A stretch of DNA of 64,000 bases from Hydractinia symbiolongicarpus (taxonomy: Eukaryota > Cnidaria > Hydrozoa > Anthoathecata > Hydractiniidae). Shown piece after piece: positions 8,851 to 38,535 of the stretch (its first letter is position 1; every line of letters begins with the position of its first letter). Both the position numbers and the translations under genes were made by a program. The stretch covers positions 20,970,501 through 21,034,500 of the forward strand of contig NC_079879.1 in assembly GCF_029227915.1 (NCBI RefSeq), in the 5' to 3' direction. A model generated the notes under the pieces. It saw nothing but the letters and a program-made list of their open reading frames with translations. It was not told the origin of the DNA and searched no databases.

Positions 8851-9629
8851 TGTCAACAGTCTTTCGGTTCATTAACACAAAATATGTTAAAAGAGCTTGC
8901 CATCGCTTTGATATCATTAGTAATACTTTGTAAGGACACATAATGTATTAACCTCACTACGTATGCAATTCATATTTCTATATGCTGCAATCAAAAACAC
9001 TTGCCAAAACAGGGACTGTAATAATCACTTCCTTTCGCGCGTACTTCCTTCATGACTAAAGGTCTCACCATTTGACTGTATTTTCCGCCATAGCGCAAAT
9101 AAACCCATGAGATTATTTGTTTAAGTGTGCACACTTTAGCAAAATTAGGACTTTTGATGAACTAAACATGCCCCAACAAAGACCTGGCGAAATTTTTTAG
9201 CTATAGCGGAAAATGCAGAGAAATTAAAACCAGCCTTAAACCTACGCCTTTATGGTTACAAAACACAGATATGTTTTTGCAACAACTAAACAACTAGTGG
9301 AACAGCTAGCGAACGTCTCTTCAAGAATACCTTCTCAAACGAGAAGCAAGTTCTCCATTCTTTTTTCTTTAAATCTCTTTGAAAACAGTGATTGTCCTAG
9401 CATATGTGCTTACTTGTTTTGTAATTGACAACTTTAAAGAATTCCATCTTTCAATAACGTCACGAGTTATTAGACATTACCCAAAACCACAATAATTTTT
9501 TCTTCTGATATCTTAACGACCATTTATAGATGTTTCTGTTACTTATTTCTTCATACGCTAAAAATAGAAGGTATGTTGTAAAGCATTTATATAAGAGCTT
9601 TTTTATCCTTAGGACAGAAATTGTAAAAC

Positions 9630-9632
9630 AGA
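9630..9632 (+). repeat. CACTA target-site duplication, left (aga)
   Basis: Three bases aga precede the CACTG terminus; the same three follow the CAGTG terminus at 12915-12917. Three-base duplications are the hallmark of CACTA/EnSpm insertion. Confidence 0.85.
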
Positions 9633-9959
9633 CACTGCATGAAATTCGGTGTTTTCCAATTTTCATAAACAGATAACTTTGTACAATCAATATTCAAAAA
9701 AACAAAAACATGATGTTTTTGAAATTAGTGCTTATTGATTTTAAAAAACATTAAGTTTTAAGTTTTTACAATGCAGAAAAAAATATGTTATGTTTTCGTT
9801 ATTCGGAAAACATGATAAGGCAATGTTTTCTGTGTTATAGAAAAAAAATACTTTAGGTTAACGGTCCACAATAAAATATTACATTTTTATGTAAATATTA
9901 CATAAAAGTTGAAAACTTCATGTTTATGCATTTTTTTTTTTAATTTTGTTATTGAAAAC

Positions 9960-10260
9960 TAGTCGATAAAGTCCGTGGAAAAATCCACTTCGGCAGGAGT
10001 AAAATGGGACATAAAACCATAACTTGAATTTTGATGACGTTTGCAGAGCTTGAAACGCTAATAAAGAAAACGTATATGATCACGCGCTTTTGACAGACGT
10101 TTAGGAATTACAAAGGTTTAAAAATTTAAACTACATCGTAATTACTGCATTAATTTGAATTAACCTGTTGACATGCATTTTCCGCCGACTTCAAAGAAAA
10201 ACGAAAACATTCACTTTGCCGACATACTTTTCGTATTATTATAAGAGATATGTTGTGTGA
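9960..10260 (+). repeat. Dispersed CCGTGG-family repeat nested in the CACTA element
   Basis: Begins actagtcgataaagtccgtg and shares modules with 13850-14090, 28251-28680, 30935-31600, 56869-57126 and 59457-60120: the actag...ccgtggaaaaatcca head, a cataaa/acgctaat/gatcacg...ttttgacagacg module, and a cggc...tcaaag(g)aaa module. Class unknown; no coding capacity seen. Confidence 0.55.
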
Positions 10261-10712
10261 AAGTCTGCTCAAGTTTAAGAAACAAGCTTTTGTTTCATAA
10301 GATACACGATTTTAATAAACATAAGGCAAAAATTATGAGTACTTTTAACTGCTAACTTATAAAATATTGAAAAAATTAAAAAAATTATAAAAGAGAATCG
10401 AAATAATTCTCCTTATATGAAAATTATAACACTGTTTTTCATAATTGATTTGTATTTGCAAGGTTTAATCACATATAACGTGGATACAAAAGAAAGTTAG
10501 TTATATTATTCATGTAGGCTGGACCAATCGTCATAAACTAAACAGATTAAAAGCAGGGGAAGTTAGAAATTTATGTCATTTTAAAACTTAGCAACCCTTT
10601 AAAGAAAAAAAATTAAGATAATAACTATGTGCAAAATATAATAAAAAACATTTGGCTTCAGAGGTCCAAAATAAGAGAAAAAATAAGAACAATTAAAGAA
10701 CAGTTTAAAGCT

Positions 10713-12130
10713 TTAAATTGAAAAAGTTAAGAACTTTTGAAGGCTTTTTTTAAGTAAAATGATTTTATAAAAAATGGGTACATTATTAAATCCCAATAGC
10801 TTTTCTTCTACACGAAACAACACAAACGTCTTTTCCATGTAGCCTTGTTTGTATTTAAATGAACTTTGATCTAATGCGCTGCACTGGAATAAAATTTGCA
10901 GGCCCGCTGTTCTGATACAGGTTTTTGCACCAAACTTCGAGCGGTTTCCCATGAAAAACTTTGTTACATCAGGAGTGTGATAAAACCAATCAACGTATGC
11001 AAATAAATGCTCGTAGTGCTTTCCTTTTACAATTAATCCATGTTTTAGAAAAAACATGAGTCTTCCTGGGTGTGGAAAATGGTACATCTCACTAGATGGC
11101 TGATTCGTTCCATGTTCATTACCCCAGTATGCAACCACAAAACTAGAATTAACACTTCGCGAATTGTATGAGCCAAGAACTTCATTGCCTATAAATATCT
11201 CGCTTGTTTTCCAGCCAGACTTGGGTAAAGAGTCTCATACACTTTTGTCAACTGCCATAATAGGTATGAATCAAGGTGGTAGATAAGAAGCTTTTTTGGA
11301 TAGGATACAACTTTTAAGTCAACCCAACATTTTTTTCCAATAGGATCAAACCTTCTCGACGAACATTGTAGGTACAAGAGAAGCTCATGTGATAAAATAT
11401 CATTCAAAGCTCCCCTTTCTTTGTGATTATTGAGAACATTATCAATACAATCAATTATTGGTTGAAATTCATCACCAACATCATGTCGGTTGTTAAATAC
11501 ATGATTATCTCGAATAAATCTGTTCATCATTTGACACTCTACATTTCGTTTATTAGTAGGTATGCTTCCAAGAATCCCATTGTATCTACATTAAAATAAT
11601 AATATACTTTGTTAATGCATATTCTGTATGATTCCAGTTCTTAGAAAAATAGCTCAAACAGTGGATTACATAAAAAAGTCATTGATTAGGACATGTGTGT
11701 TGGTAGAATATTATCAGTGTAGAATTTAAAAAACATATATTGCATCATACCTTTTAAAACTGAATAACCAGAATGAATATATAGGTCCATAGTCCAAGAG
11801 ACATGCCAATATATGACCATGCAAATGCATATTGGGTGTAACCTTGTGTTCACCATAAAGCTGCTGAAACGATTTACCAAAACGTATAAGGTAGTTGTCA
11901 GCAATTTTTATGTCATCCTCCGTTAAAGCTCTAACACATAGATATTGACATGCAATAACAAAATTTCTCCAACAATTTAAGTGTTCTTTTGGTATTATTC
12001 CTTTGAGTGCATACAAAGAAAATAAAATAGTCCAATTTTTTAACTCGTCAGCAGTGAACATATCAGCCTCCAATTTTGCTGGCAGCTTCCCAATGTCAGA
12101 TGGAGTTTTTATCGCATCAACACGATTTAA
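10713..12130 (-). pseudogene. CACTA/EnSpm transposase C-terminal remnant
   Basis: Minus-strand exon 12130-11751 includes DELKNWTILFSLYALKGIIP, then NCWRNFVIACQYL and HKVTPNMHLHGHILACLLDY, ending SFKR. It splices with GT-AG over 11750-11586 (165 bp) to an exon starting at 11585 that reads YNGILGSIPTNKR and MMNRFIRDN. This is the conserved block after the DDE region in EnSpm transposases. A frameshift near 11220 separates it from the continuation at 11138-10713 (FVVAYWGNEHG, then FPHPGRLMFF). The catalytic N-terminal half is absent. The match to CACTA termini around it supports the assignment. Confidence 0.8.
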
Positions 12131-12350
12131 GTACTAATATTTATTTCCATATATTATATTTTAGCTACTAATATTTATTTCCATATTGTATTATATTTAA
12201 TTACTAATATTTTTTTCCATGTATTATATTTTAACTACTTATATTTATTTCCATTGTACTTTATTTTAGCTACTAATATGTATTTCTGTATTGTTTTAAA
12301 TTTAAGTACTAATATTTATTTCCATGTATGATATTTTAACTGCTAATAAT
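12131..12350. repeat. Subterminal tandem repeat of the CACTA element
   Basis: About six units of 34-42 bp, each built around tactaatatttatttccat with a variable spacer, lie between the transposase remnant and the right terminus. CACTA elements typically carry subterminal repeats bound by their transposase. Here the units are longer than the usual 10-20 bp motifs. Confidence 0.7.
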
Positions 12351-12914
12351 GTATTTTGTGTTCAAAATGCAAGTTTTCAATAAAATTTTTTATTTGCTCA
12401 TACCCAATCCGAATATTACTAATCCTTGTATAAGTTCCATGAAAATTATATTCAAGCAGTACGATTTAAGAAGGCATAGAATTTTACGAAAAGCAATTTG
12501 TGCTGTATTTTAAAAAAATGGAAAAATGGCATCATCTAAAAAACATTTGATGAAAATCCAGTGCTTTTTTTTTCAAGAAGTAATAAACATGTTCATAAAG
12601 AAAATCATAGAACACGAAGGTTCTGCGCGTGCTAGTCATATGAAAACATCCTGTTATCGCTGTTGCTAATACTGATAACTCAAACTTTGTGACGCTCTAT
12701 TTCTTGAAAACTTAAAATAATCGTTCACCATGAACATATACAAAAACTTTGTGTTTTAGCATGTCCTAGGAAGTCCCGATACTTTCTCTTATCGTACATC
12801 TGATAATACACTTAAACATTGAGTTATATTTTTCCGAAAACCTTGAATAACTTCCTCTTTTTGTGGATTATCGTATGTTTTCAGAGGACCGAAAAGGTTG
12901 ATTTTCGCGCAGTG

Positions 12915-12917
12915 AGA
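12915..12917 (+). repeat. CACTA target-site duplication, right (aga)
   Basis: Partner of 9630-9632. Removing the element and one aga restores a continuous exon 4 that aligns to gene B. Confidence 0.85.
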
Positions 12918-13849
12918 GAACACGGTGATGAAGAAAAATATGGAATCGTTCAGTAATGGATTGAAAAACAAACTCGATGCAATAAAGCAAAAAAATAATC
13001 CTAAATGAAATTACAAAAGTATTTTTACTATTATTCACAAGTAAACAATTTTCAGAACAAAAAACCCAGGGTGTTTTTGTTAACGAATTTAATGCTAAAT
13101 AATTTATTTAATTATACTATCTTCTCAGATATTCCCCCCTTTCACCAACACATCAACACTTATCACAAAGTCCTTCGTTTTGTCTAATTATTGGAGTTTT
13201 GTATAATATCCTTCATTTCTCTCAACACAGTCTTGTAGTTGTTTTAGCACCTCAGATGGGTAGTTGTTTAGCCACTAGTTACTTGTACTTTTAGATGTGT
13301 TTCCGAAAGCAGAGAAAAATTTTGTATCATATATTTGTTTTGTCTTTTTAAAGAAGCAGTCCAGTAAAAAAATCGATTCTTTATAACCCTGTTATTCCGA
13401 TGTAGTATTAAAAAGTTCACAAAGAAATATTTTCTTTTCGTCCGAAACTTGCTGTGATATTTAGGAAAAATACCTAACTTATTTGTTTTTAAATCCAGAA
13501 TGTGTATAAAATACCACTGATTGAGTGATGGCGTACCTGGTGAAACAGGTTTTTATGTGTTATAGAAGACCTTTTTTAGTTCCTTTGTTCTTAAATCTTT
13601 TTTTAGCTATTAAGATATTTAAGATTACAAAAATATATAATCCGGAAGCTTTTGATGTCATATCATGTCTGTAAAAATACTGAAATCACAATGTCAATCT
13701 AATTAAGGTTAAGGATATAACAGTCCCTTCCGACGCACAGTTAGCATATTTAAAAATCCCAGACTCACTAGATAATTTTTCTGCGAAATATATTTTCTAA
13801 AAGATGTAATGATTTCTCTAGAGTACGATATATTATATTTATTACTAGG

Positions 13850-17000: not shown

Positions 17001-18589
17001 CGAAAGCTTTGCTTCCTGCGTTATTTAATTTCGCCCCTCCCCATTAACTTTCCATAGGTTTGTCTAAAATGAATGTACATCACAAAAAAAAACAAAATAG
17101 CAGCAATAATTTTTGTTTGCGTCAGCACTATTTCTATGACATCATCAAAAGCTTGATATTTGTCCTAAATGCCATATCTGTTTAAAATTCTATTACTTTA
17201 GTTATAGAGCGAATTTTTATCTTCTGTTTCCGAAAGCTACGTAAAAGTTTAATATGTCTTCCGGTTTTTACAAAGATCGCATAAAATTTCAGTTTTTCCC
17301 GATTTTCGGGTAAAATAAAAAAATCGGGAATCGGGTTAATCACGTGTCCAAAATATGCTATTAATAAACTATTTCAGTCAGAATCATCGCTGATGCATTT
17401 CCATTTGGACGGAAGAGGCTGTTCTGGATTAATAGTTTTTTTATTTAATTAGCTTAAATAGCTTTCTAATTATTGAATAATTTGTATCGTTCTGTTCCAT
17501 TACGATTGCATTTAGTACAAATTGTTGAATGATTTCTAAACAGATTTGTGGCACTACTTAGGATGTTTTATAAATTATATTTTTGTGGACGGATAATGAA
17601 GGAACACAATCGACCACCTACCACCCAACAGTAATTTAACTTATATTGGTTTGCATCACTAGAGTAATAACAATGCTCATTTCAGGAACTTTTTAGTTCT
17701 ACTGAACTCATTTACAAACGAATGTTCCAGAGCAAACTCCGAGGTCAAGTCGATCAATGAGCACAACTCAAGCGCCGCCACATCAGCGTGATTAATATTT
17801 CGGGAATAAGTTACAATTGTTCTTGATTAGGATGTGATTAAAAATTAAGAAGCCTGAGATATTTTAAAAGTAAACATGTTTTACCTAAATTAATGTTTAT
17901 CCCTTCTTATTTTAACCAAATGACCCCATAATAAATTACAGAAAGTAAACTCAAAGTTTATTGGCTTATTTTAAGCGCATGTTAAACTAACACAAAAAAT
18001 GTATGGCATAATTCAGTGCTACAAGAACAGACGAAAATGTAACATTGTCAAGAATGGTACGAAAGACATAAACAGTAAGAAAATTCATCTTCTTCAGATC
18101 TATATCCACAGGAATCCCCCTTTGTAGGAAGCATTTTTTCTCACGGACACTAATAGGTAACATTAGGTCTTGACATCAACTTAAATTCTAGAAACTCAAA
18201 TTCTTAAAAATTTTTAAAATGAGAAATCTTTGTGTCACAGTTGCCGTAGTTTAACAAAGTACACAAAGTTCGCCCCCTTTAGATGGGGTATTGTTACAAT
18301 GATTTGGCTAAAACTGTTTCATTTTCTATTTTTCCTCCAGCCAAAATATTTTGGAGTGGGATGTCACCTTTAAGTAATTTCTTTTTAAGTTCCGTATTAT
18401 ATAATCTATCTTAATCTGGTGTTTGAAAATTACGTATTATTATGTGCCTATATACAAATCAGATAAGTTAATTAGTGAACAAGTTAGTTTAATTCTTAGC
18501 ATACCATGACTGTGATCAAATGTTTTTGTCCCAAAACATTCGATTTAATCAAGAAAAGCGAATCATGATTTCCCACGCTGGCTGTTTCG
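14091..18589. other. Non-coding interval between genes A and C
   Basis: 4.5 kb of AT-rich sequence. Unit 2 has only about 0.7 kb at the equivalent place. A tetranucleotide AAAT run at about 15446-15462 may mark a LINE tail. No coding exon, RNA gene or complete element is recognised. The small frames at 14140-14343 and 14309-14542 are not supported. Confidence 0.45.
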
Positions 18590-18630
18590 CTGTCTCCATC
18601 ACATGATGTTTCGTAAGTCGCTTTTTTCAT

Positions 18631-18640
18631 TATAAATATA
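18631..18640 (+). promoter_or_regulatory. TATA-like box of gene C
   Basis: tataaatata, about 65 bp before the gene C ATG, within a block (18593-18660) that is strongly conserved with unit 2 upstream of gene D, including the same cattataaatataaaaaaaa string near 31720. The position is suitable for a core promoter with a 5' UTR of about 35 bp. Confidence 0.5.
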
Positions 18641-18702
18641 AAAAAAAACACAAGTATATTGAATACAACTGATATAGAAGTGAAAGGCACTGTGGTTGCA
18701 AA

Positions 18703-19757
18703 ATGTTTTCGTTTTTAATTCTAGTTGCTGTGTTTTGTTGCATACCAATTAACATGCATTGCAAACCTCTCACGGCAAATCACATCTTGCTAAAAATCCA
18801 ACACCGATTGATTACACAAGTTAACCACATTTGCAAAGTAGGTATATAGAATGCTTCTTAATATAATGTTTTACGGCCATACCATAATAGCAAGCATCAT
18901 CAGATTCAAATGAATTGCATTTCTTTTCTTAGATGAATCCAGCTCGAAAAGAAAGTGAGTTACTATATCCATATAGCAAAGCAGCTAGTACTAAGAATGT
19001 AAGTTTAGCACATCTTTGTTGAGGAAAGATGTTTTGTAAAGTATTGTATTTAAATACATTGATTTAGTTTGCTGATTTAAAAAAAAATGTTTCACAAATA
19101 ATGGCTTTTTGATGGCTCCCGAGAGATGTTATATTACAAAGTGCATATGTTAAGAGAACTAGTAAATTGAAAGCTGTGCTCATTCTCGTGTGTTATGTAT
19201 AATAACAAAAACACATTAATATAGTAAATAACCAGTTAAACCTGCGTAATTCTTTAATTTATTATATATAATTTTTAGATTTTGCAATGGATGGATGTTA
19301 ATAGGATAATGTTAGAGAATTTCATCAATGTGACAGATCAACTTATTAAACGTAAATCTAACTTGCACATTCTAAAGGACAGTATGTCGACAACATTAGG
19401 CCACTTTCATAAGTTATGCGAGGTGAGGTGTTATTTCTTTGTGGTGTAGGAGCTACCTAAAACTTGCAGCTCTCTTTAACGCCGGTCAAAGCTGTTTTAA
19501 ATTTTGTAATTTTTAAGTGCAAGAAACTATCGCTTTCAATGATTTAATACATGTGATGCTTCGTTTTCTAGCATAAGGCCTGTGTTACGGCCGATACCAG
19601 CTTGGGAAAAAAAATTCAATCGTTTAATAATAGATTGAAAGATAAAGTCGATGCAATAAAGCAAAAATTATTTCTAAATGAAGTTATACAAATATTTTCA
19701 CTATTATTTACAAGTGAACATTTTCCAGAAGAAAAAAAACAGGGTTTATTTTGTTAG
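18703..19757 (+). CDS. Gene C: intact secreted helical (cytokine-like fold) protein, 176 aa
   Basis: Four exons joined by GT-AG phase-0 introns: 18703-18837, 18933-18998, 19279-19422, 19572-19757. Residues 1-20 are a signal peptide (MFSFLILVAVFCCIPINMHC). Residues 21-45 form an amphipathic helix with hydrophobics every 3-4 positions (ILLKIQHRLITQVNHIC). Exon 2 (46-67) is polar and loop-like. Exon 3 (68-115) has two predicted helices (WMDVNRIMLENFINVTDQLI and HILKDSMSTTLGHFHKLC) with a glycosylation sequon at Asn84. Exon 4 (116-176) has a long heptad-like helix (KKIQSFNNRLKDKVDAIKQK) and ends GLFC. Cysteines 20, 44, 114, 119 and 176 are all conserved in gene B. No known family is recognised by sequence. 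The exon plan and phases equal those of short-chain helical cytokines, which suggests a secreted ligand; that role is inference. Its duplicate, gene D, is dead. Confidence 0.8.
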
Positions 19758-19964
19758 TAATTTTTAATTAACAATTTAATTTTCTTCAGTCAATAGATAT
19801 TCTCTTCAGTTAATAGAATATACGAAACTACTAATTTAACATCACAGGCAAAAATTAGGTATCAAAAATACTTGTGCCTAAACTCAAAGATGAAGATCAA
19901 TCAAAAAAAATTGTTTGATATTACAAGATGGAAGCTAAAGATTTATATTATTTATTGTTTACTC

Positions 19965-20000
19965 AATTATTTATTTATTTATTTATTTATTTTTATTCTT
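19965..20000. repeat. TTTA microsatellite
   Basis: A run of tetranucleotide ttat/ttta units after gene C. The homologous position in unit 2 (32828-32852) has a shorter run, so it predates the duplication and has changed length. Confidence 0.8.
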
Positions 20001-22670
20001 TATTTTTTAATTGGCAAATATATTCTATTGTGGGTAGAGTTTTTAAACTATTCTATCATCAGATAATAATTTTTTTTGCGCAGCCAAAAGAAAATGTTTT
20101 AACAACTTTATTACGGTTAACTATTAGAAAAGTTATAATTTTTTTTAAATTTTTTATTTTTTAGTAAGTTAGGAAATTTTTTTTAAAAAATTTGTATTTC
20201 TTTATAAATATTTTTACTTAGGAAATATAACAATGTAATAGTTGTAGGAAATACTGAAATATTGAAATAGAAGTCCATTAAGACTGCTAATATATGAATA
20301 GTTTTTTTTCTGCTTTAAAGCTTCAAGGAGAAGAAAGAGCAAAATTACGTTTTTTTCTTATTTCTTCTTCTATTCTTCAATTGCTTGTTAAAAAAATTTA
20401 TTTACAGGCCGCTTGCGAAAAAATATACTTATTTACATGTCAAAGCCGACCGGCCTAAAGCTTTGCAGGTGTACATAGCTACGACAGAAGGTTTAACAAT
20501 ATTAGATTATCGTCAAAGGTCTTTTGAGAAACAAACATGAATTGACAGGTTTTGCTGAGGTCACCTGTTTAATGAGTAACTAAATGTTTTTACCCTGTAT
20601 CTCCTTCGTTTTTTTGCACAGTATGAAACCGTGATTATGCTTAGTTTATATTTAGTAATAAACCATTATCAACAGCCATTAAGCGGACGACATTACATGG
20701 ACTCCTTCAGAACAATTGCGAGTGTGGCATAAGTTTTTATATGTGAAAGGAAGGTAGACCAATCATCCTATTTTAATTTCTCTAATCTTGGGTTAAAGGT
20801 CCTACAATAGGCATATTTTCACTTTATTCTTGGAATGCGTACATACAAAGCCCTTCCTATTAGCAAATCCGTATTATGTGTCTAAAGGGACAGTTAGACG
20901 TTAACAATACATGTCGCTAATCGTACTTAAATGCTCTTATCGTGATGTAAAAATAAAAAATTTTAATTAAACGCCTGTTAAATATTCTATTCTTCTGTTA
21001 AACTTATATAATAAAATAAGCTTTGGAAATTCTCAAACTTGATAAAAAGTCAAATTATCAGATTCATAGAGCAAACTAAAAATTTGGTACAACATATTTT
21101 GTTAACTTTATACTATTGATTTTTGTTTGATACCGAGGTTAATAAGTAAAACTAAAAAATTATGAATAGCCATAAATATATTGCTACGATTTTTAAATCA
21201 AAGTGCTTACCATTTTAAAATAATTGAAAAGATTTTCAACATGGTTTTCTTTCTGTCAAATATAAATTATATACCTTTTAGTTATACTAGCGTCCTTAAT
21301 GAACTGTTGCAAATTACAAGTGACTAATTAACAAAATTACCTTCGTGTAAGTAGGAAAACGGTTAACAAGTCTAATAAAAATTCTCCCAGACTAGTTCGG
21401 CCAAAATAAGAGAAGTGAAATACTGGTGTATATGCCATTAGCAACAAAAAGCATAACTAACTAGTTGTTAGACCTTTAAATTAATAATGTATCCATTTCC
21501 CTGTTTTTTTTAAAATAATATTTCGTGCATTTTTAATACGACATTAGTCTGTATGAGAGAGAGAAAGGAGGTATATTACTATACTAATCGCTAGCTGATT
21601 AAAATCCACCACTTAACAGATCGTAAATTTTGTGAATATTTAGCGATTCGGTTCCCATTTCGAACTTGAAAAATATATTATTATGAAAACCAGTCGACAG
21701 ACCGTAAATAAAACGTAAGTATAACTGTGAAACCGCGCAGAGAATGATATCACTAATTTGGTACAACTTTGAGGAATTTTCATGACATCATAATACCTAT
21801 ATTATTTAATGACAATGACTGAAAAGATAAGTGGTAATATCATTTCGGGCATACAACTGGATTATAAACAAAATAACCAGAAGCTTTAATAATTGTGAAA
21901 ATTAGAGGGATGTAAAACGATTTTCTTTAAAAACTATATATTCCTCTACACATTCCAGTAGACATCATCAGAGCGTATATTTTTGCAAATTAAAAGTTAA
22001 AATGTTGCAGTAAGTAAGCGTTTCTATGGATACATATGTATTATATAAAAAAGCTAATAAAAAATACCGACCTAATTCAACAATTTCAATGGGACTGATT
22101 GTTCTTGAACACTTACCAAAGTGTCATCCGTTTACCTTTTAAAATACAAAAACATTTTTCTTAATTTATTTGTGCATTTGAATCTCATGAATATTTGACA
22201 TCATTCATTGTACGAAAAAATTATTTCAAAATATGTGCCCAAAAATGACTTTGACGAAACTAATTTGTTTTCATTTAAAAGGTGTATTATGACGTTGTAA
22301 TATTTGTATTAAATGTGGGGTAATTACAAAGAAAAAATAATTAGTATTTTGAGTAGCCCGAAGATTTGTCACGATTCATTACTTACAGACTAAGTACAAC
22401 CTCTCCCATAACTTTTTTTTTAAGAAAAAGATTATTTGAAAATTGAAACTAGCTTAAATAAAGTACGATACGCTAGGGGCGAAAAATTAAAGATATATTT
22501 TTCTGAAATACTACTATTTTCACTTTTCACTTCAAACTGTCGCAGACAAATCATTATACAGATTATTTATCCCCAAAGGCTCTAGATTAAATGTGTAATC
22601 CCAAGCTTTTGCGTAAAAGTCAATCTTACATGTTTATCATCCTTCTAAAAGTTACTTTCATTTGATTGTA
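20001..22670. other. 3' flank of gene C, non-coding
   Basis: 20060-20960 and 22115-22670 align with unit 2. 20970-22090 is specific to unit 1 and replaces the stretch of unit 2 that holds orphan exon E. I see no exon in the unit-1-specific part. Confidence 0.45.
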
Positions 22671-22677
22671 CACAGAT

Positions 22678-22831
22678 GTAGTTGCCAATTTAGAAAATTC
22701 CCAAATGTTAGCAGTAACATTTCGAACATGTATAAAACAACAGTCTTTAAGACTTCCGGCATCATCTATACAACAGTTGATTCTTCTCAGGGGTTTGCAT
22801 CACAACTGGTAATTGCCATTAAAATGGTATA
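22678..22831 (+). other. Conserved segment with a possible exon
   Basis: After a ttgattgtacacag acceptor-like site, one frame is open for about 50 codons (start CSCQFRKFPNVSSNIS, later SGIIYTTVDSSQGFASQL) and ends in TAG. The aligned segment in unit 2 (about 34945-35090) has lost one base and has TGA in this frame. Conservation is high here relative to flanks. It could be a terminal exon of an unrecognised gene or a conserved non-coding element. Confidence 0.25.
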
Positions 22832-23699
22832 GTTGCGTTGACGTCATAATTGTAAAACATTCCGTTGCTTATGTTTGTTTAGAATTGCATTAACTTCGAT
22901 AACAACTAAACAACAACAAAAGTGAAAGTAGAAAATTACTTGTGAATTAATTAAAAAAAATTAAACTTGTGAAAGTTTGAATGAGTTACAGCCAAATTTT
23001 TAGCTATAACTAACTTGTTACGCATTACATGAATGGTTAATTTAACACTGAGATGCCTTGTTTTTGATGCTCTTCTCAATCGCTTGTAGCACTTAATACC
23101 CTGTATACATAGACAGTTTCACCGCGTGAAAAGGAGGCCTTAACCTTCCCCTTTTTTTGCTGGAGAATGTTTTTGCTTAAATTAAGTATGTTTCACTGTA
23201 AAAAGAACGTGATTTAGGGGTCCCAGCGTGTTTTTAAAGAAGACAAGTTTTCTTCATCACCTGATTATAGTGAAGGACATCTTTTCGACTTTCGTAAACT
23301 TCCTCACCTTGTTGGTGCCTTGGAATATACCAAAAACATTTCAGGAACATATGTATATAAAGGCATTAAAGTATAAGCATATTTTAAGCAGCATATTTTT
23401 CTCCTTACAATCACTCTTTTCTGAACACTGAAGCATCAATAACGTAGGCTTACAACGATATTAAGGAAAACAACTTAAGAGTTTTCAGACACAAGAATTA
23501 AATCGGACATCAAAGATCAACGTAGAAAATTATTAGCTTGAGCTCCGACAGACAATTTTACGCAAGCCTTTCTCAGGTTAGAGAAAAAGAATGATTTGGA
23601 AACATTTGTTGCTTATGAGAACCATTTTTATCTGGTCTCTCTGTCTGAGTTTGGAAGAAAAAATGTACATCAAAACTGGACTATTTGAAAGGTCTTAAA

Positions 23700-24094
23700 C
23701 AAATACAGAGTTAATCCACATATCCACCTAGAGTTGCGAGGACACCACAAGGCGTATAAATATCAGTGTGGAATGAGACTCCTATTTGCAAAAGATTTCA
23801 TGAGAAGCAACGACACTGAGATGTTAAGATGTTGGCAAAAAGTCAACAATCCATCAAGCTGTACAAAAATCCACAATTATTAGCTACAATATGGTCAGGG
23901 ACTGCAGCTGCGAACACGACAAGGATATATCACAACTGCAGCCATGCAATTATGAAGAAGCGGGTAGTTGCCTTCTAGATGGCTTCAACAAAAGATTTAA
24001 AAAGATATCAATAGTAAAGGTTGATACAATGGCTTTGGATCTATTCTGTCCGTGGCTTCCTTTAGATCTTTTGGTAAAAATTGTTGCTAATTGA
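23700..24094 (+). pseudogene. Fragment of a widespread cnidarian repeat ORF
   Basis: The frame at 23891-24094 reads QPCNYEEAGSCLLDGFNKRF then KKISIVKVDTMALDLF. This resembles the PCxHEEADTR...VDTDVVV block found in many uncharacterised, transposon-like proteins of cnidarian genomes (recalled, not searched). Here HEEADTR has decayed to YEEAGSC and VDTDVV to VDTMAL. It is partial, with no intact flanking sequence. Confidence 0.4.
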
Positions 24095-25046
24095 CATCGC
24101 AATACATTGTGGCTACAGGTTCCTGTCGAAATATGTTGTACAACAACATTAGCAAACGGTCTTCATTAGTTAATAACATGTCAATATACTGAAGGAATCA
24201 CATTTTATTTAAGGTTTGTGGCGTTGATGCTTTTCAATAAACTACCTGAAAGACTATTTTTATGTGTTTGTAACAACAGTAATCATCATTATGGATTGTC
24301 TTTATCTTTCCACTTATGCGATTGACCAGATCATTCCAGATTTTCAATTAGATAAATATTGATAGACACGAGAGTTGCCGTCCCTAAAGTCTCAAAAGCA
24401 AGTGCAGAATCGGTTAAGTGTGGTTTGCAAACGCAAATAGTGTAAGTGCAAAAGACATAATTTGCAAGTGCTTTTTTTTCTTGTTACGTGATCCATCACT
24501 AACCGTTTGTTACAAAGGTCACCTATTAACCTCGAACTCTTCTTTTTGTTTGTTATCTAGAATCTTTTTCTTGTCTGCCGTTGTTTGTTTTTTCGCTAAG
24601 AAATTTAGAATTGACGAACAAAATAGAATTGTATCGTTTCTCCTATTTCCATAACTTATAAAAACAAAATTAATGCAGCTGAAACAGGAAAAAGGGAGGT
24701 CCATGACGCTTTACGTATATACCAAGATCAAATAGACACTTCCATTTATACGATTTACTTAAAAGGAATTCTATTATTAATATTCCCTAAAACATTTCTT
24801 ATATCGAACTTCTAACTTAATTTTTCTAATCGAGTTTGCGAAAATGCGTCTACCGCACAATACAACGGCGATGTCATTTTGACATACTCTTGCATGTAAA
24901 AGTGATATCTGGAAAATTAGAATTTGCAGATGAAAACAACTGATGACGCATTTTTGTAAATAACCACAACAACCTAGCGTTTATTTTCATAATTTTACAT
25001 TTTTTACGTCCCTAATTTTGTTTCCATACAAAGTTCAATTTTGTAT
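24095..25046. other. Junction between duplication units
   Basis: Sequence lying between the last landmark of unit 1 and the first of unit 2. The duplication breakpoint should be inside it. Nothing coding is recognised; the frames at 24418-24654 and 24519-24704 overlap antisense and look random. Confidence 0.4.
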
Positions 25047-25200
25047 AAGATGTTAATTCGGTATATATAGAATAGTATCCACTTTATTTAAATTGAGCAC
25101 ATGGAACTGGTAATCGTTTCTGATACCTTTTATCTCATAAAGATACAGTCGGTATGTATCGGAGTGGGTTAAATTAGTAAAACTTTCTAAGTTAAGACCG

Positions 25201-26740
25201 TAACCATATTTACAGGGCGGCGTTAGTGTTTCGGTTGTTTGTTTTACCTATATTTACCCTTCGATACTCTTTAATTGATACTTCAGAGTCTGCTGAATTA
25301 GTGCTAATGCGTATTTGTTTTAAAGTATTTGTGAATATGTCCATCCTGTATGCCAAAATATTTTCGAAACAACTAATTTTGTTTTGAACTTGATACGTAT
25401 AAAAATTGTACGCCACAAAAATCACAATTGCCTATTTACTAAACGGCTATCCTGAAGACAACAAGCATCACAAAAATTGCGATGAACGAACTTAAAAAGA
25501 ATGCAAAGAATTTTGAACCAAGAAACAAAAGATCTAAACAAAGATATGAGTAGGGAAAGTAAATAATACATAATAATATTCGAATTAAAATAAAAGAAAA
25601 GAATTTTAAACTAATAATCAAAACATTGTAAACAAAGATACAAAGACGGAAATAGATTCTATACCTTGTTATTTGATATTAAACATTATCTATATTCTTT
25701 GTCCTCTGTGCAAAATATAACAAAAAATTGCTGATGTAGTAGAATACTCAGGTCGTGCTGATAAAATGTTATAAATAACTAAAAGTTTTATTAAAGTAAA
25801 CATTGTTAGCGGCTTGCAGTTCCGTTATAACATTTTCTTTTTACTGATGTCCAATCATTCATTTCCATAAATTCATTAAATATATTATATATCCTTACAT
25901 TAGAGACACTGTTAAGCAAAAATTGCAAAACACTCCTGAAAAACTTTCCTATCTGTGCTAATATTAACAAGTAATCTATAAGCACCTTAGCAAAAAGATA
26001 AGCACCTTAGAAAAAACTTGTTGTATATTGTCATATGTTGTCTGTTATTAACGGTACGCAGGCCGAAACATCGTAAACACTGTTTTTACCCAAAGTAATG
26101 ACGGGTGTCAATAATATAACTTGAGAGAATTAACTGATCATTAACTGATTTTCCAACAAAATAATAACTTTTATTAAACGCAAGTATGTTAGATCAATTC
26201 ACTCATCATTATTATTCATGCATTTAATATAAAGTTACAGCGCATTTAGAGCCGTTGTTTTACTGCAGGTCGGCTTGTGGGGTGGTGAAAAAAATAGAAT
26301 GGTGCTATTCATATCTCTGGTGAGACGTACAAGTTCTATAAGAACGTCTAATTGCACTTTTGAAGCCTTATAAAATAGATTTTAGTTGATGCCAAGAATT
26401 TTATAGGATTGGAAGAAACAAAAAAAAATTCAAAAAGTGTTTAGGAAAAGGGATGTGTAAATAAGTGTCATTCACAGACAAGAAATAGGTTTTTAATAAA
26501 CTCCTGTTACTTACTAACCAACTTGCATCCTCCATTGTCAATGCAGGTTCCTTAAAATATTTATCCTTTTATTCTAAAATATTTTATTTTAAAATATTTA
26601 TTCTTTTATGGCGAAAAAAATGCGATATTTATCTACTTGTGCTAAGAAAACACTAAGATGGTATTGTATCTGCACTCGTATTCTCATATAATCCATATGA
26701 GAAAGGTTATGAGTATAATTTTGGCTATATACTGTTTAAT
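25201..26740. other. Unit-2-specific non-coding insert
   Basis: About 1.5 kb between landmarks that are only about 270 bp apart in unit 1. It is AT-rich, with short repeats such as taagcaccttag twice at 25979-26011. No mobile-element termini or coding frames recognised. Confidence 0.4.
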
Positions 26741-26952
26741 ATTACTAGCAATATCGTCAAAAAGTTGTTGTCACTAAATAGATTTGGCGTTATCTTCAGT
26801 AATATTCAGCACAAATGATATACCCTGTGATAAGTTTTTTCTTGTTCTTGTGAAGTCCTTGAAAATACCATTTGCTTTGCAACGTTCCTTGCTTTTTCCA
26901 ATAATTTTGAATCCCCTATGATTGAAACATACTTCCGGAATCCCATATCGAG

Positions 26953-27255
26953 ATGTTCAAATATTTTTGCTTCTCGTTATTTCCCTTTGTCAGTATGCGT
27001 TGCAATACAAGAACAACTGGTCAGTGGGATGACCAAATCATTTTGCGCATTGTTTTTAGTACAATTTCCATGAATTTTATTTCAGTCGTTAATTTCAATG
27101 TTGTTGCTTTTGTTACCGTTGCTAGTGTCTGTCGGTCTTTCTATACAAATCACGGTGAGAGTTCCTCACTCAATTTTGCAGTGCGGAATGCTTATCTTGT
27201 GACAACATGTTTTAACCAAATATACACCGGAAAAGAAAAAAAATGTTCCTTTTAA
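26953..27255 (+). other. Open frame upstream of gene B, shared with unit 1
   Basis: The 100-codon counterpart of 7380-7718 (MFKYFCFSLFPFVSMR). The two reading frames diverge after FAVRNAY/FALQNVY. No domain recognised. It overlaps the putative promoter region of gene B. Confidence 0.25.
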
Positions 27256-27261
27256 GCTGCC

Positions 27262-27268
27262 TATAAAA
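27262..27268 (+). promoter_or_regulatory. TATA-like box upstream of gene B
   Basis: TATAAAA about 142 bp before the gene B ATG, conserved at the aligned position before gene A (7682-7688). Confidence 0.35.
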
Positions 27269-27409
27269 TTGCTTTAAAATTGACAAAATCAGTAGAGTTA
27301 ACCAATTGATGAGAAAGCAAAACAAGAATTTTTACGACAAATCCTTATTTGCTGTTGCGATAAATTTTCAGTTTCAACATTTACAGACAAGAATTTCATT
27401 AAAATAAAC

Positions 27410-30263
27410 ATGTATTTAATATTCATACTACCAGGTAGATTATATTATAATTCTTTTTCGAAATCTGTATTTAAGATTATTAGAAATTATCTTTAAGTTT
27501 GATTTCCATACTATTAATTTCTTTTCACATCCCTTTGTGTAAGTACGCATACTTTTTTTCAAGAACATTGCAACTAACAAATTTGCATTTTTAGTGTGCA
27601 TACTATCAGCATTGTCACCGACATATTGCAAACCACTTACCAGCGACCAAATACTTCAAAAAATCCAAAACAATTTAGCAAACCAAGTTAACAAATTTTG
27701 TGCTGTAAGTATACCCTTTTTCTTCAATCTTAAAACTAAAGCAGGTATTGATCACTACACAGTGTTTCAAATTCTGTTTTTAACCACACTGTTATAATGT
27801 TCTTTTTCAGTTAAAACCTGCCAAAAAAGAGAGTGAAGTTTTGGATGCATATAAAGATGCTCTCACAACAAACAAGGTAAGAAAAACATAATATTGTCTT
27901 CTGTTAAACAATCCTGGCAATTAGAGGATCTTGTAACACTGATCAAAATAATGTATAACATTGCATGCTTTTGAGGAATAGTTGATGAGACATTGCCATG
28001 AGATATTTTTGATGACGCCGTTATGTCTTTGGTTTCCAAACGTGTGCGCCAAACCAGCCTGACGGAATAGGTCCCAAGTGGTCCATTCACGGGATGTAAC
28101 CTGTTATTTCCACCTGTAACCAAGTTATTTATCCCCAAGGTTTTAAATTCAATGCAATTGCGTGAACCATCTCAATAAGTTTCATCAAAGACAATACGGT
28201 TTTGACGTCAAAAATTTTAAATGACGAAAGAGATTTTTACGTGATATTTTATGGCTCTGTTGCATAAAAGCCTGATCGAAGTAATGGATTTTCTACGAAT
28301 AGCTAAGAAGATATTATTCTTTAAGTCGCGTTTTTGTCACAAAAAGTCCATAGTTACTTATACAGGAGATGAATCAGATAGGAATTAGATACAAAAGTAG
28401 CTGACGTCAGTCTACTGTATTCGCGACGTAACGTAACGTCAGAAAGCTTAACAAAGAAGACATACTTAATTTTTTGAGGGGCGAAATTTAAGGAAATTAA
28501 ATATGATCCCTTTACCTATAACACAATTAGCTTATTAGATATTATAATAGACTAGCCGTTAAACCGTGGGAGAATCCACGGGGTCGTCAGTCTTTTAATT
28601 ACACCCTATTTCGTGTGTCCGTTCTACGACGCTTTTCTCGCGGACAGACAGACATAATACGGCTATTATTAAAGAGAATAGGTAAATACTCCGTGGAAAA
28701 CCAAAGTTAGGAGATATTTTGATGAAGTCATTGTTTATCTTTTCCAAATATAAAAAAAAATAATTTTTCAAAAGGTGGCTAACCTCTTCCTTTAAATGTG
28801 GAGAAGTTGAAGAATTCGCAAAAGTTTGTGTCGCGATACTTGTTAGATGAATTTAAAACAAATGTCCACCGATGCTCTTTTTGACGCAGTTTTTTAATGA
28901 ATAAGCACATAGCACGCCATCTTTGTTTTTTGACGACAAGCGGTAAAGTGGAAAGTGGAAGACTTTGCGTGCATATTAAAGATGTTATTTACTAATTAAT
29001 AGCTTACGACAGATTAAAATTACTTTCATATAATAGAGAGTTATATTTTTAGCTTTCGGAATGGATGGAAATTAACAGAATAATGTTGGAGCATTTTATT
29101 AATGCCACAGACTTAATAAACAAAAGTAAACCCGACGATGACTTGGCTATGATACAACAAAGCCTATCAACGACTCTTGATCATTTCCACAAATTGTGCG
29201 AGGTAATTTGCAACAAGTTTTTGTTTTTAAAATCTACACAAGGACATTGAACGTTCTGTGCTAAAACCACTGTAATAAAGTCAGCAGTCTTTCGGCTCAT
29301 TAGAACAAGATATGTTAAAAGAGCTTGCTATCGCATTGATGTCATAAGTACTACTTTGTAAGGACACCTAATATTTTAACTTCACTACTTATGCAATTCA
29401 TATTTCTATATGCTGCAATCAAAAACACTTGCCAAAACAGGGACTATAATAATCACTTCCTTTCGCGCGTACTTCCTTCATGACTAAAGGTCTCACCATT
29501 TGACTGTATTTTCCGCTATAGCGCAAATAAACTCATAAGATTATTTATTTGAGTGTGCACACTTTGGCAAATTAGGACTTTTGATGAACTAAACATGCAC
29601 TAACAAAGACCTGGCGACCTTTTTGAGTTATAGCGGAAAATGCAGACAAATTAAAACAGGCCTTAAACCTACGCCCTTATGGTTACAAAACACAGGTATG
29701 TTGTTCCAACAACTAAACAACTAGTGGAACAGCTAGCGAACGTCTCTTTAAGAATACCTTCTTAAACGAGAAGCAAGTTTGCCATTATTTTTTCCTTAAA
29801 TCTCTTTGAAAACATTGATTCTCCTAGCATATGTGCTTACTTGTTTTGTAATTGTCAACTTTAAAGAATCACCTCCATCTTTCAATGACGTCACGAGTTA
29901 TTAGGCATTACTTAAAACCACAATGATAAATATTCAATATGAAAATTATATTTTTCCTGAGCCTTTGTTCCGGTATCTATACCGCTTTTTCTTAGATGTT
30001 TCTGTTACTTATTTCTTGATACGCTAAAAACAGAAGGTATGTTGTAAAGCATTTATATAAGAGCTTTTTATCTTTAGGACAGAAATTGTAAAACAGGGAA
30101 TACGGCGATGAAGAAAAGGATGGAATCGTTCAGTAATGGATTAAAAAATAAACTCGATACAATAAAGCAAAAATTAATCCTAAATGAAATTACACAAATA
30201 TTCTCACTATTATTCACAAGTAAACATTTTCCAGAACAAAAAAGCCAGGGTTTATTTTGTTAA
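27410..30263 (+). CDS. Gene B: intact secreted helical (cytokine-like fold) protein, 178 aa
   Basis: Five coding exons: 27410-27434, 27595-27704, 27811-27876, 29053-29202, 30078-30263, all GT-AG. The first intron is phase 1 inside the signal peptide (MYLIFILP|VCILSALSPTYC). The other three are phase 0, at the same places as in gene C. Exons 1a+1b total 45 codons, exactly as in C; exon 2 is 22 codons in both; exon 3 is 50 (48 in C); exon 4 is 61 in both. Helix A is DQILQKIQNNLANQVNKFC. Exon 3 starts LSEWMEINRIMLEHFINATD with a sequon at Asn84. Exon 4 has MKKRMESFSNGLKNKLDTIK and ends QGLFC. Cysteines 20, 44, 116, 121 and 178 match those of C. Exon 3 and 4 identity to C is roughly 55-65%. The start was chosen because an ATT occupies the in-frame position upstream of exon 1b and only the mini-exon supplies an ATG. 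Function unknown; a secreted ligand is inferred. Confidence 0.8.
28251..28500 (+). repeat. Dispersed repeat inserted in intron 3 of gene B
   Basis: About 250 bp absent from the aligned intron of gene A (8680-8700 is continuous: gatatttaaggaaatt). It contains the cctgatcgaagtaatgg and cgtaacgtcagaaagctt modules of the CCGTGG family. It is flanked by the short direct repeat attt/aaattt. Confidence 0.6.
28537..28680 (+). repeat. CCGTGG-family short repeat in intron 3 of gene B
   Basis: Starts tattataatagactagccg, carries aaaccgtgggagaatccacg, and ends gcggacagacagacataata followed by cggctattatt. The ends form an imperfect inverted repeat (ataatag...ctattat). Gene A has no such insertion. Confidence 0.65.
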
Positions 30264-31674
30264 CTCATTTTATGCTAAATAATTTATTTAATTACTATCT
30301 TCTTAGCCTCCCCCTTTTCCCTAGCACATCGACACTTATTACAAAGATCTTCGTTCAATCTTATTATGGAAAACGTATATAATACCCTTCATTTCTCTCA
30401 ACACAGTCTTGTAATTTTTTCAGCACCCCAGATGAGTAGTTGTTTTGCCACTTGTATATTTAGATGTGTTTCCAAACGGATAGAAAATATTTGTAATAAT
30501 AAATTTTTGGTATTTTTGAAGAAGCAGTTCAGTGAAAAATTCGATTCATAACCCTGTTATCCACAAAGAATTATTCTTTTCACTTAACCTTGACGCGATA
30601 TTTACAAACAACACCTAATTCCGGAATGTGTGTAAAATGTTACTGATTGGGTTATGACGTCTCTAGTAAAATAAGAGGATCTTTTTTTAGCTCTTGTGTT
30701 CTTAAATCTTTTTACTTCTCAGTTCTCAAATTCTTTTTTAGTTATTTAGATATTTTACATTACAAAAATATAAAATCCAGGAACTTTTGATGTCATATCA
30801 TGTCTCTGAAAAAAATAGTTCCTTCAGCAGTTCCTTCTAACGCACAGTTAGTACAAAATTAATATTCTAAATATTAATTTTTTTTCGGAAATATATTTTT
30901 TAAAAGATATAACGATATTAGGACGATATATCATTGTCGTCAAGCCTGTGGAAAAATACACTTTGGCATAAGAAAAATTGAAGAGATACATCATTTGAAT
31001 TTTGAAGTGGCCCATTTGTATACATAAAAAATATTTAAAATTTTGTTAACATGTAGCATTATAAAGAGTTTGAAACTTAAATCAAAATCACATATAGGAT
31101 CGTGTGTTTTTAAGGTTAAGGAGATCTAAGCGTGTAAAATTTTTCTGAAGTCAGCAAAAACCACTAATGTAGAAAAAAGATAATTTGGAAAATTTGGTTA
31201 CTCGTTGTCTTTATTGTGTGTGACTTAAAAACCTGATCAAAGCAATGTATAGGGTTATCTACTTTTGACACGGTTAAGGAAATATAGGGGTCTAGATATT
31301 CGAAAGATTCGTCAATGTACAAAAATTTCATTTTAGAAATTCTTTAACCTGTTTTCTCTGGTGTATAGACCTTAAAAAACGGATGCAGAAAATGTATCAA
31401 ATCATGCGTTTTTGACAAACAGTGAAGAAAATATAAAGGTGACGTGAGCAAAAACCCACCAAAGTACAACTTTTTCTAAAAAAAATGTTCCTTTATTGTA
31501 TAAAGCATAAAACGCTGACCAAAAAATTGTATATGATCATGTACTTTTGACGAACGGTTACAACGGTTGCAGTATTTTAATGACGTCATCAATTCATCTA
31601 TTCCGTAACACAATGGCTGATCCCAAAACATCCTAATTACTCAAAAAAGAAGAAAAACGATTTTTCAGAGTGTC
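30264..31674. repeat. 3' flank of gene B followed by CCGTGG-family array
   Basis: 30264-30935 aligns with 13084-13855 of unit 1. From 30935 (gtcaagcctgtggaaaaata) to about 31600 lies a chain of related modules: tgatcaaagcaatgtatagg, ttttgacacggttaaggaaa, and again tgaccaaaaaattgtatatg with ttttgacgaacggtta, ending tgacgtcatc. It looks like two or three partial copies in tandem. No genes seen. Confidence 0.5.
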
Positions 31675-31963
31675 TGTTTCGCTGCATCCATCACATGATG
31701 TTTCGTAATTCGCTCTTTTCATTATAAATATAAAAAAAAACACAAGTATATTTAATACAACTCTGAAATAGAAGTAAAGAGCGCTGTTGTTTCAAAATTT
31801 TTCTAAGAGTTTTTGTCAAAGGTAGCTACATCTATTTTTCTTCTGCTTTGTATTCTTAAGAAGATATTATGTTGACTTTGAAAACGAAACGCAAACAATA
31901 TATATACCTAGATATTGAATGGCTACAAACATATTCGTTTTTAATATTGTCTTTTAAAATAAA

Positions 31964-32617
31964 ATGCTTTCATTTTTAATTCTAGTTGCTGTGTTTTGTT
32001 GCATATCAATTAACATGCATTGCAAACCGTTTACAGCAAATTACATCTTGTTAAATTAAAAAAATATATATGTTAAGAGAACTGGTAAGATAAAAACTAT
32101 GCTGATTTCCTGTGTGTTATATATAATAACAGACACACATTTAGTACATAACTATACTAAATAACCAGCTAAACATGCGTATTCTTTTAATTTAGCACAA
32201 TGTCTTTATTATATATAATTTTGAGGTTTTGCAATGGATTGATCTTAATAGGATAATGTAAGATAATTTTATCAATGTGACAGATCAACTTATTAAACGT
32301 AAATCTAACTTGCACATTCTAAAGGACAGTATGTCGACAATATTAGGCCACTTTCATAAGTTATGCGAGGTAAGGTGTTATTTCTTTGTGGTGTAGGATC
32401 TACCTGAAAGTTGTAGCTTTCTTCAAAGATGATCAAAGTTACTTTAAATTTTGTATATTTCAAGTGCACGGACTATCGCTTACAATGATTTTAATATCTG
32501 TACTAAGTCGATGCGATAAACCAAAAATTATTTCTAAATGAAGTTATACAAGTATTTTCACTATTATTCCCAAGTAACCATTTTCCAGAACAAAATAAGC
32601 AGGGCTTATTTTGTTAG
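31964..32617 (+). pseudogene. Gene D: broken duplicate of gene C
   Basis: Exon 1 (from 31964) has an intact signal peptide (MLSFLILVAVFCCISINMHC) but runs into a stop after KPFTANYILL. A deletion has removed the end of exon 1, intron 1 and exon 2, because the sequence jumps to intron-2 sequence (tatgttaagagaactggtaa, aligned to 19147). Exon 3 (32226-32369) has TAA after NRIM where C has TTA, and ends HFHKLCE. The front of exon 4 is deleted; the rest (about 32504-32617) still reads KLFLNEVIQVFSLLF and GLFC. The upstream TATA block is conserved. Confidence 0.85.
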
Positions 32618-34219
32618 TAACTTTTAATTAGGAATTTAATTTTCTTCAGTCGTTAATGGAACATACGAAACTGCTAATTTAACATCATAGGCAAACATTA
32701 GGTACTAAAAATAATTGTTTTTAATCTCAAAGATAAAGATTAATAAAATAAGCTTGAAAGATAATCACATTGTTTGAAATTACAAAATTGAAGAAGCTAA
32801 AGATTTATAATATTTGCTGCTTACTCAATTATTTATTTATTTATTTATTTTGCAAATGTATTCTATTGTGCGTAAAGTTTTGAAACTATAAGAAAGAACC
32901 AAGTCTCTATCATCAGATAATAATTTCCTTTGCACAGCATAAAGAAAATGTTTTAACAACTTTATTGCGGTTGATTATTAGAGAAGTCATGAATTTGTGA
33001 AAATGTTTCATTTTTTAATCAGTTAGGAAACTTTTAGTTAGGAACTTTCAGTTAGGAAATTTTTTTAAATTTGTATTTCTTTATACATATTTTTAGTTAG
33101 AAAGTAGAACAATAAAAGTGTAATAGTTGTAGGAAATATTGAAGTATTGAAATAGAAGGTCATCAAGACTCCTAATCTAAGAAGGGAGAAATATTACGTT
33201 TCTTCTTCTTATTTCTTTTCATTTCTTTTTCTATTCTTCAATTGCTTGTTAAAATAAATTAATTATGGGTTGCTTGCGAAGTAAAATACAATTTACCCAC
33301 GTGTCAAAGCTGAGCGGTCTGTATCCGTGGAGAAGTACATAGCTACGACAGAAGGTTTAACAATATTGGACTATCGTCAAAAGTCTTTTTAAGAAACAAA
33401 CATAAGTTGACAGGTTTTGCTTAGGTCACTTGATTAAACAGTAACTAAATGTTTTAAACTTGTTTCTCCTTTGATTTTTTGCACATTATGAAACCGTGAT
33501 TATGCTTAGTTTATGCATAGTAATAAACCATTATCAACTGCGCTAAAATTGACGAAAAATGGCGGACAAAAAATTGCGAGTGAGACATAAGTTTTAGCTC
33601 ATTTCTTTAATCTTGGATCAAAGATCTTACAATAATTTTATTCTTGGAATACGTACATACAAAGCATTCCTATTAACATGGACTGTTTGTAATTCTAAAT
33701 ATATGTGTAGTCATATTCAACAAATTATTTTGCTTTTTCTCCTAGAAGAAGAGGTAAAATTTCTGTTTCCGTTTCGTTGCCAAAAAAACACAGTAAATGC
33801 AATTTCCTTTCATGTCATTTTTTTTTGTAGTAATCTCTGAAAAAGCATTGATTGCTAGTAAACAATAACAAATACCTTTCGCCTGAGGTATGTGCATCTT
33901 GTGTTTATTACGAGGATAGCAGTTAAAATTTAGGGAAAATCCAATTGAAGATCAAAATACTTTAGCTGTGACGTGAATTTTTGACAGAAGCAATTCCGTA
34001 TTATGTGTATAAAGGAACAGTTAGATGTCAACAATACATGTCGCTAATCGTACTTAAATGCTCTTATCGTGATGCATAAAATTAAAATTTCTAATTAAAC
34101 GCATGTTAAATAAAAACCTTTCCAAAATTTAAGTAACATGTGATGTTTATGCCTATGTTGTGAGTACTTGTGAGTTTGTAGTGCAACTGCCGCTTCATTC
34201 TTTCTCTGGGATAACACAG
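32618..34219. other. 3' flank of gene D
   Basis: Aligns with the flank of gene C (about 19758-20960) including the TTTA run at 32828-32852. The frame at 33613-33840 is not shared in a coding way with unit 1 and is not supported. Confidence 0.5.
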
Positions 34220-38506: not shown

Positions 38507-38535
38507 GATTGCATCAAAATCATCTTCAACAAAGA

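Follow-up and report, generated by a model that had tools for sequence, protein, structure and literature searches.

The complete cytokine pathway was assembled within Bilateria according to the excerpted text of PMC12026705. In excerpts of PMC6797617, JAK and the cytokine receptor are additions made in Bilateria, and the four-helix bundle and STAT are listed as present in cnidarian ancestors. Gamma-chain cytokines are described as confined to jawed vertebrates (PMC9465101, in excerpt), and cnidarians are reported to have CRLF3, a receptor-like protein of the WSXWS type for which no native ligand is known (PMC6797617 and PMC12026705, in excerpt). No literature on 'helical cytokine' together with Hydra and Nematostella was found, a negative that does not extend to Hydractinia cytokines in print, and the word 'cytokine' had 0 occurrences in the main text of the Hydractinia cell atlas (PMC11876637). 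Here we analysed 64,000 nucleotides of the Hydractinia symbiolongicarpus genome (contig NC_079879.1, positions 20,970,501 to 21,034,500, forward strand; this whole stretch is called the window), in which a sequence-only reading had described two genes, C and B, as an undescribed family of secreted proteins with the gene plan of helical cytokines. The interpretation we favour, at a little under an even chance, takes B and C for functional members of a small family, restricted to its lineage and grown by tandem duplication, whose products would be secreted, almost wholly helical bundle proteins that are held by disulfides and act extracellularly. Class I cytokine homology stands outside this interpretation; the cytokine label was over-bold, and the family is a sound orphan.

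Gene C (18703-19757, plus strand) encodes a protein of 176 amino acids with all exons in frame, and gene B (27410-30263, plus strand) one of 178. The exons of the two genes are as follows.

18703..18837, plus strand: gene C exon 1, predicted leader and helix A; 45 codons, donor GTAGGT
18933..18998, plus strand: gene C exon 2; 22 codons, phase 0 at each side
19279..19422, plus strand: gene C exon 3, two predicted helices; 48 codons
19572..19757, plus strand: gene C exon 4, predicted long helix, C-terminal cysteine and stop; 61 codons plus stop
27410..27434, plus strand: gene B exon 1', start codon and first part of the predicted leader; ends in phase 1, with a homologous exon in copy A (below)
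27595..27704, plus strand: gene B exon 1, remainder of the predicted leader and helix A
27811..27876, plus strand: gene B exon 2; 22 codons
29053..29202, plus strand: gene B exon 3, two predicted helices; 50 codons
30078..30263, plus strand: gene B exon 4, predicted long helix, C-terminal cysteine and stop; 61 codons plus stop

Both gene models were confirmed, with open, in-frame exons and canonical splice sites (GT donors, AG acceptors). Codon counts per exon were 45/22/48/61 in gene C and 45 (split)/22/50/61 in gene B, and three phase-0 intron positions were common to the two genes. The claim that all introns are in phase 0 held for these three and failed at the 5' end of gene B, where the exon homologous to exon 1 of gene C has no in-frame ATG, so that the leader needs a fourth intron, in phase 1. 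Joining 27410-27434 in phase 1 to 27595-27704 gave the 178-residue protein with the leader MYLIFILPVCILSALSPTYC, which is split by the intron (27435-27594) after 8 codons and one base. Copy A, a broken relative of gene B, still preserves this start exon together with its splice sites.

Proteins B and C are 53% identical, with a nucleotide identity of 58-76% by exon. In a self-BLAST of the window (E<=1e-5, matches over 60 bases), only the surroundings of exon 3 (19271-19351 with 29045-29121) and exon 4 (19618-19781 with 30124-30289) matched between the two genes, and their introns did not match. When MAFFT was forced to align the whole loci of B and C, it did not place the first three exons of B on C and misplaced exon 3; its B/C figures were discarded, and the statement on introns therefore rests on the self-BLAST. 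The likeness of the two genes was higher in exon 4 and about 25 bases past the stop codon (19618-19781, 30124-30289) than elsewhere, the DNA match extending 24-26 bases beyond the stop. In an alignment of 157 codons (156 for amino acids and one for the stop), substitutions fell 48/27/75 on the three codon positions, which departs from equality with a chi-square p of about 1e-5. For the mature part, the rates of nonsynonymous and synonymous substitution (dN/dS) were 0.285/1.74 by the Nei-Gojobori method (NG86) and 0.32/1.23 by the Yang-Nielsen method (YN00), a ratio of about 0.16-0.26. The bootstrap median was 0.17 with a 95% range of 0.08-0.31, from the 870 of 1000 replicates in which dS could be computed. 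The values are rough since dS is near saturation, and in exons 1, 2 and 3, each considered by itself, dS was saturated and could not be computed. The dN/dS comparison that had been named as a check thus came out well below 1, if roughly; the two genes are under constraint of uncertain strength.

Two further copies, A and D, were found in the window by tblastn, and both are broken.

7842-7866, 8028-8137 and 8244-8309, plus strand: copy A (pseudogene), exons 1', 1 and 2; 58 of 67 residues the same as in B
9613..9632, plus strand: copy A exon 4, first 20 bases, ahead of an inserted element
9633..12914, unstranded: insertion in copy A exon 4; CACTG...CAGTG ends, AGA at both flanks
12915..13081, plus strand: copy A exon 4, remainder, with a change of frame
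31964..32616, plus strand: copy D (pseudogene, C type); exon 1 part at 31964-32053, exon 3 at 32226-32369 with an in-frame stop, exon 4 part at 32507-32614

Exon 3 of copy A is deleted, 8689-8848 standing in place of B 28249-29276, and exon 2 of copy D was not found by tblastn. The insertion in copy A, about 3.3 kb long, is probably a CACTA-type transposon, judging by its ends and the flanking 3-bp repeat. Three minus-strand open reading frames (ORFs) within it (10713-11234, 11189-11590 and 11726-12133) resembled CACTA/EnSpm transposases by eye and had no Pfam match at E 0.001. By self-BLAST, the DNA around A matches that around B in pieces (7136-13936 against 26723-31024), and the DNA around C likewise matches that around D (18529-23624 against 31621-39670). 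Together with the gene order A-C-B-D, this pairing suggests tandem duplication of a block that held one gene of each type, and a single duplication event is plausible. Kimura two-parameter distances were 0.09-0.12 between the 5' parts of A and B (three segments), 0.25 between their downstream parts, and 0.09-0.22 between C and D (eight segments); the low A/B values at the 5' end would require either conversion at a later date or an event of their own. One intact and one broken copy remain of each type, which fits both types being in use. Searching twenty 10-kb stretches, 100 kb on each side, with B and C by tblastn gave no further copy, the best match reaching only E 0.18.

The leaders of both proteins are hydrophobic (mean Kyte-Doolittle value over residues 2-20 of 2.1 in C and 1.8 in B), and beyond residue 22 neither protein has a 19-residue stretch above 1.1. 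These leaders support a prediction that B and C are secreted, with a mature length of about 155 amino acids and a net charge of the mature protein of +9 in C and +3 in B. The five cysteines that had been reported as position-matched were confirmed (20, 44, 114/116, 119/121 and 176/178 in C/B). In our judgement Cys20 lies at or adjoining the probable cleavage site of the leader, so the mature protein may hold four cysteines instead of five. The description of a single N-glycosylation site at Asn84 in both proteins was right for the shared sequon; protein B has a second one at Asn90.

The sequence-only reading had proposed four amphipathic helices, with helix A in exon 1, helices B and C in exon 3 and helix D in exon 4. 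Hydrophobic moments were compared with those of shuffled segments. Helix A exceeded its shuffles (p 0.026), and the other five segments did not (helix B 0.07, helix C 0.09, exon 4 0.12 and 0.34, exon 2 0.38); the conservation periodicity along the helices reached p<0.05 in one of six segments. Helix propensity and moments thus support the helices in part, and the support for four amphipathic helices is weak. AlphaFold2 was applied to single exons. Exon 3 alone (two-row alignment) gave a hairpin of helices at residues 2-25 and 29-49 with a mean predicted local distance difference test score (pLDDT) of 87.2 and a predicted template modelling score (pTM) of 0.59, the other four models having mean pLDDT of 72-83. 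Exon 4 alone (three rows) gave one helix at residues 2-46, followed by a tail of low confidence (mean pLDDT 69.4, pTM 0.39; 56-68 in the other four models). Since isolated fragments tend to come out as over-long helices in prediction, helix D may in truth be bent or begin further on. The proposed placement of helices by exon was supported by single-exon models for exon 3, with two helices, and for exon 4, with one of about 45 residues. Helices in exons 3 and 4 are supported on these grounds.

In B numbering, helix A was placed at 24-43 (the segment of the moment test), and helices B and C at 69-92 and 96-116 with a turn of 3 between them (the exon 3 model). The connection from helix A to helix B through exon 2 is about 25 residues, that from B to C is 3, and that from C to D is about 8 by eye (helix D starting near 125, from the hydrophobic repeat) or 2 by the AlphaFold exon models. 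On these fragment models the connections run long-short-short, as against long-short-long in up-up-down-down cytokines. The up-up-down-down topology of cytokines requires long crossovers from A to B and from C to D, the latter of about 14-19 residues in IL-2, IL-4 and GM-CSF. Eight stretched residues could just span such a helix, and the short C-D link makes the topology lean against up-up-down-down, with the start of helix D taken from an isolated-exon model. In a simple antiparallel bundle, Cys 44, 116 and 121 would come together at one end, which would suit that topology better. Foldseek returned 101 matches of the exon 3 hairpin to PDB structures at E<=10 and 0 at E<=0.001; among the 50 of these 101 that were listed, most came from unrelated proteins, as hairpins or parts of bundles, and none carried the label of a cytokine. 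A two-helix hairpin cannot discriminate cytokines, and no inference is drawn from these matches.

In Pfam, B had no match and C had none above the cut-off. One candidate, Phe_ZIP (PF08916) on residues 111-164 of C, reached E 0.044 and 14.8 bits against a curated cut-off of 25 bits and was absent in B; this domain belongs to intracellular adaptors, and the match was taken as chance. The four weak NCBIfam matches among the two proteins scanned, all to B and all to bacterial families (best E 0.0023), were taken as chance matches of helices. PDB sequences at E up to 10 gave 3 matches to B alone and 2 to a B+C profile, none significant and none a cytokine, in agreement with the earlier remark that no sequence similarity to any cytokine is evident. 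Among 5.8 billion proteins, B alone gave 45 candidates, none at E<=1, and the B+C profile gave 398, none at E<=10; this negative means no relative sharing 5-residue words in a database from which the annotation of the species itself may be left out, and does not mean absence from RefSeq. Viral contigs gave 52 pattern matches, none of which was confirmed. As a control, a single-exon TMEM241-like neighbour in a flanking stretch (L018:4080-5042, minus strand) found 27 proteins in the same database. Its relatives included a protein from Logan assemblies with 95% identity, as well as Clytia and Rhopilema proteins that bear names (best named relative Clytia hemisphaerica, 38%), with none named Hydractinia; hydrozoan proteins are therefore in that database. 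The claim of an undescribed secreted family held as far as these tests go: the genes are under constraint, the leaders are hydrophobic, and neither Pfam nor PDB sequences nor the protein database, outside which the annotation of the species may lie, gave a significant relative.

Other features in and around the window were recorded. At 45443-46351 (minus strand), exons of an astacin metalloprotease followed by a kringle domain (PF01400, PF00051) form a separate protease gene. A TNP-like RNase H domain at 36714-37184 (plus strand; PF21787, E 2.3e-22) is probably the remains of a P-element/THAP-type transposase, and 2383-3798 (plus strand) holds pieces like the reverse transcriptase of a long interspersed nuclear element (LINE), of which 3207-3515 matched PF00078 and 2383-2940 matched nothing in Pfam. 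Outside the window, two long single-exon ORFs (L011:3632-4600 and L016:5618-6616) share, by eye, a motif like LPI.V...LPCFL.TKEVLK, and a third (L015:8980-9999) is weakly similar to them by eye; none of the three had a Pfam match at E 0.01. Downstream of the window, L013:6072-6527 and L014:3140-3517 are near-identical exons like those of G protein-coupled receptors by eye, the first matching PF00001, and the pair is probably a recent duplication.

We favour B and C as working genes because of their open spliced exons, shared introns, matches to each other that are confined to the surroundings of exons 3 and 4, third-position bias, low dN/dS and the one intact copy left of each type. The hydrophobic leaders, the modelled exon 3 hairpin and exon 4 helix, and the lack of a Pfam domain above the cut-off also speak for this interpretation. 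Once the leader is removed, the protein would fold into a compact bundle of helix A (exon 1), a mobile segment (exon 2), the antiparallel hairpin (exon 3) and the long helix (exon 4), tied by Cys 44, 114/116, 119/121 and 176/178. Outside the cell it would most likely act by binding another protein, in the manner of a ligand or as an accessory factor, and it would not be an enzyme. The bundle, the disulfides, the binding role and the restriction to one lineage are putative. Several observations weigh against this interpretation. Exon 4 was less strictly conserved by dN/dS (0.22/0.60 by NG86, 0.24/0.50 by YN00) and its third-position excess was weak (16/10/18). The simplest account of exon 4 is that B and C have exchanged sequence at their 3' ends by gene conversion, which makes this stretch a likely conversion tract; the low dS of exon 4 points to it, and the pooled dN/dS would then mix histories. 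Amphipathicity at p<0.05 was reached in one of the six segments (helix A) and missed in five, and the isolated exon 4 model is of medium confidence (pLDDT 69). Finally, the control has a 95%-identical Logan-derived relative where B and C have none; low expression may lie behind this, as may a patchy presence or a gap in annotation.

Of the competing explanations, the one that fares best, as a minor if real possibility, is a membrane-active defence or venom-type protein, whose cationic amphipathic helices would disturb microbial or prey membranes. The charges of +9 in C and +3 in B and the exon 4 helix, lysine-rich in its first half by eye, speak for it, as does the general frequency of tandem duplication and loss in defence and venom-type families. 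The top PDB profile match was the helical antimicrobial peptide CAP18 on the exon 4 helix; at E 0.44 it was not significant and lies at chance level. The cysteines and the two-helix hairpin favour a folded domain, the charge of B is modest, and no defence or toxin family came above the Pfam cut-off.

It is unlikely that the proteins are carriers, in which an antiparallel helical bundle would bind lipid or another hydrophobic molecule, as apolipophorin III and secretoglobins do. The long-short-short loops would agree with such a bundle, as would the grouping of Cys 44, 114/116 and 119/121 at one end of it, a cysteine geometry that is itself derived from models. No sequence match to any carrier was found in Pfam or PDB sequences.

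That B and C are true four-helix cytokines, with the up-up-down-down fold and signalling through a class I-type receptor, by distant homology or convergence, we consider quite unlikely. Much of the outline agrees: a leader by Kyte-Doolittle, a mature protein of about 155 residues, predicted helices, three shared phase-0 introns, a 22-codon exon 2, and an exon 3 whose two helices are joined by a very short turn. No sequence or profile similarity to any cytokine was found in Pfam or among the PDB matches at E up to 10; cytokines diverge fast, and the lack of similarity alone is not disqualifying. Against the IL-2-like plan cited by the sequence-only reading (49/20/48/36 codons), the phase-0 introns and short exon 2 were upheld, and exon 4 (61 codons, 25 over that plan) and the phase-1 leader intron of B were at variance, so the gene plan is a loose match only. 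Loose plans also arise by chance; by a very rough estimate, about a tenth of all genes would show three phase-0 introns alone. Exon 4 holds a single helix of about 39-45 residues (exon model, and sequence by eye), and a C-D link of about 8 residues, or 2, sits badly with an overhand crossover, for which known short-chain cytokines have about 14-19. In excerpts of PMC2654155, IFNL2/3 carry an analogous phase-1 exon 1', so the split leader of B is not disqualifying, and IL3 and IL21 have a five-exon plan, so the four-exon plan is not universal. The orphan CRLF3 of cnidarians would favour a ligand of this kind; the completion of the pathway within Bilateria (PMC12026705) and the suggested addition of JAK and the cytokine receptor there (PMC6797617), both in excerpt, would not.

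Decaying or hardly used genes, with constraint in the past and all four copies on the way out, would explain why two of the four copies are broken and why the protein database holds no relative, and are improbable given that B and C are intact over at least 530 coding bases with clean splice sites and third-position-biased substitutions.

Weakest of all, and very improbable, is that B and C are the first cnidarian four-helix cytokine-type ligands on the vertebrate interleukin exon-to-helix plan, possibly for an orphan receptor such as CRLF3. If this were true, the helical-cytokine gene plan would predate Bilateria or have arisen twice, and the four-helix fold, if real, would provide a candidate cnidarian ligand where CRLF3-type receptors lack a known native one. 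Factors for signalling, defence or recognition that are specific to a lineage occur in orphan families such as this one. Gene editing is reported in Hydractinia (PMC6122657).

Compared with known systems, B and C resemble the short-chain class I cytokines (IL-2, IL-4, IL-3, IL-5 and GM-CSF) in being small and predicted helical, with a leader, phase-0 introns, an exon 2 of about 20 codons and two helices in exon 3. They differ in the 61-codon exon 4 with one long helix, the short C-D link and the lack of any sequence similarity found, and to our knowledge their cysteine pattern matches no short-chain class I cytokine that we could name. The Unpaired ligands and the helical factor of Drosophila are invertebrate secreted helical proteins, proposed or shown to be cytokine-like, and B and C are likened to them by description only. 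The interferon-lambda/IL-10 family differs in its five conserved exons, in having no sequence match to B and C, and in an exon 1' of 4 residues against 8 codons and one base in B; it is alike in its phase-0 introns between helices and, in IFNL2/3, in a short phase-1 exon 1' such as that of gene B (PMC2654155, in excerpt).

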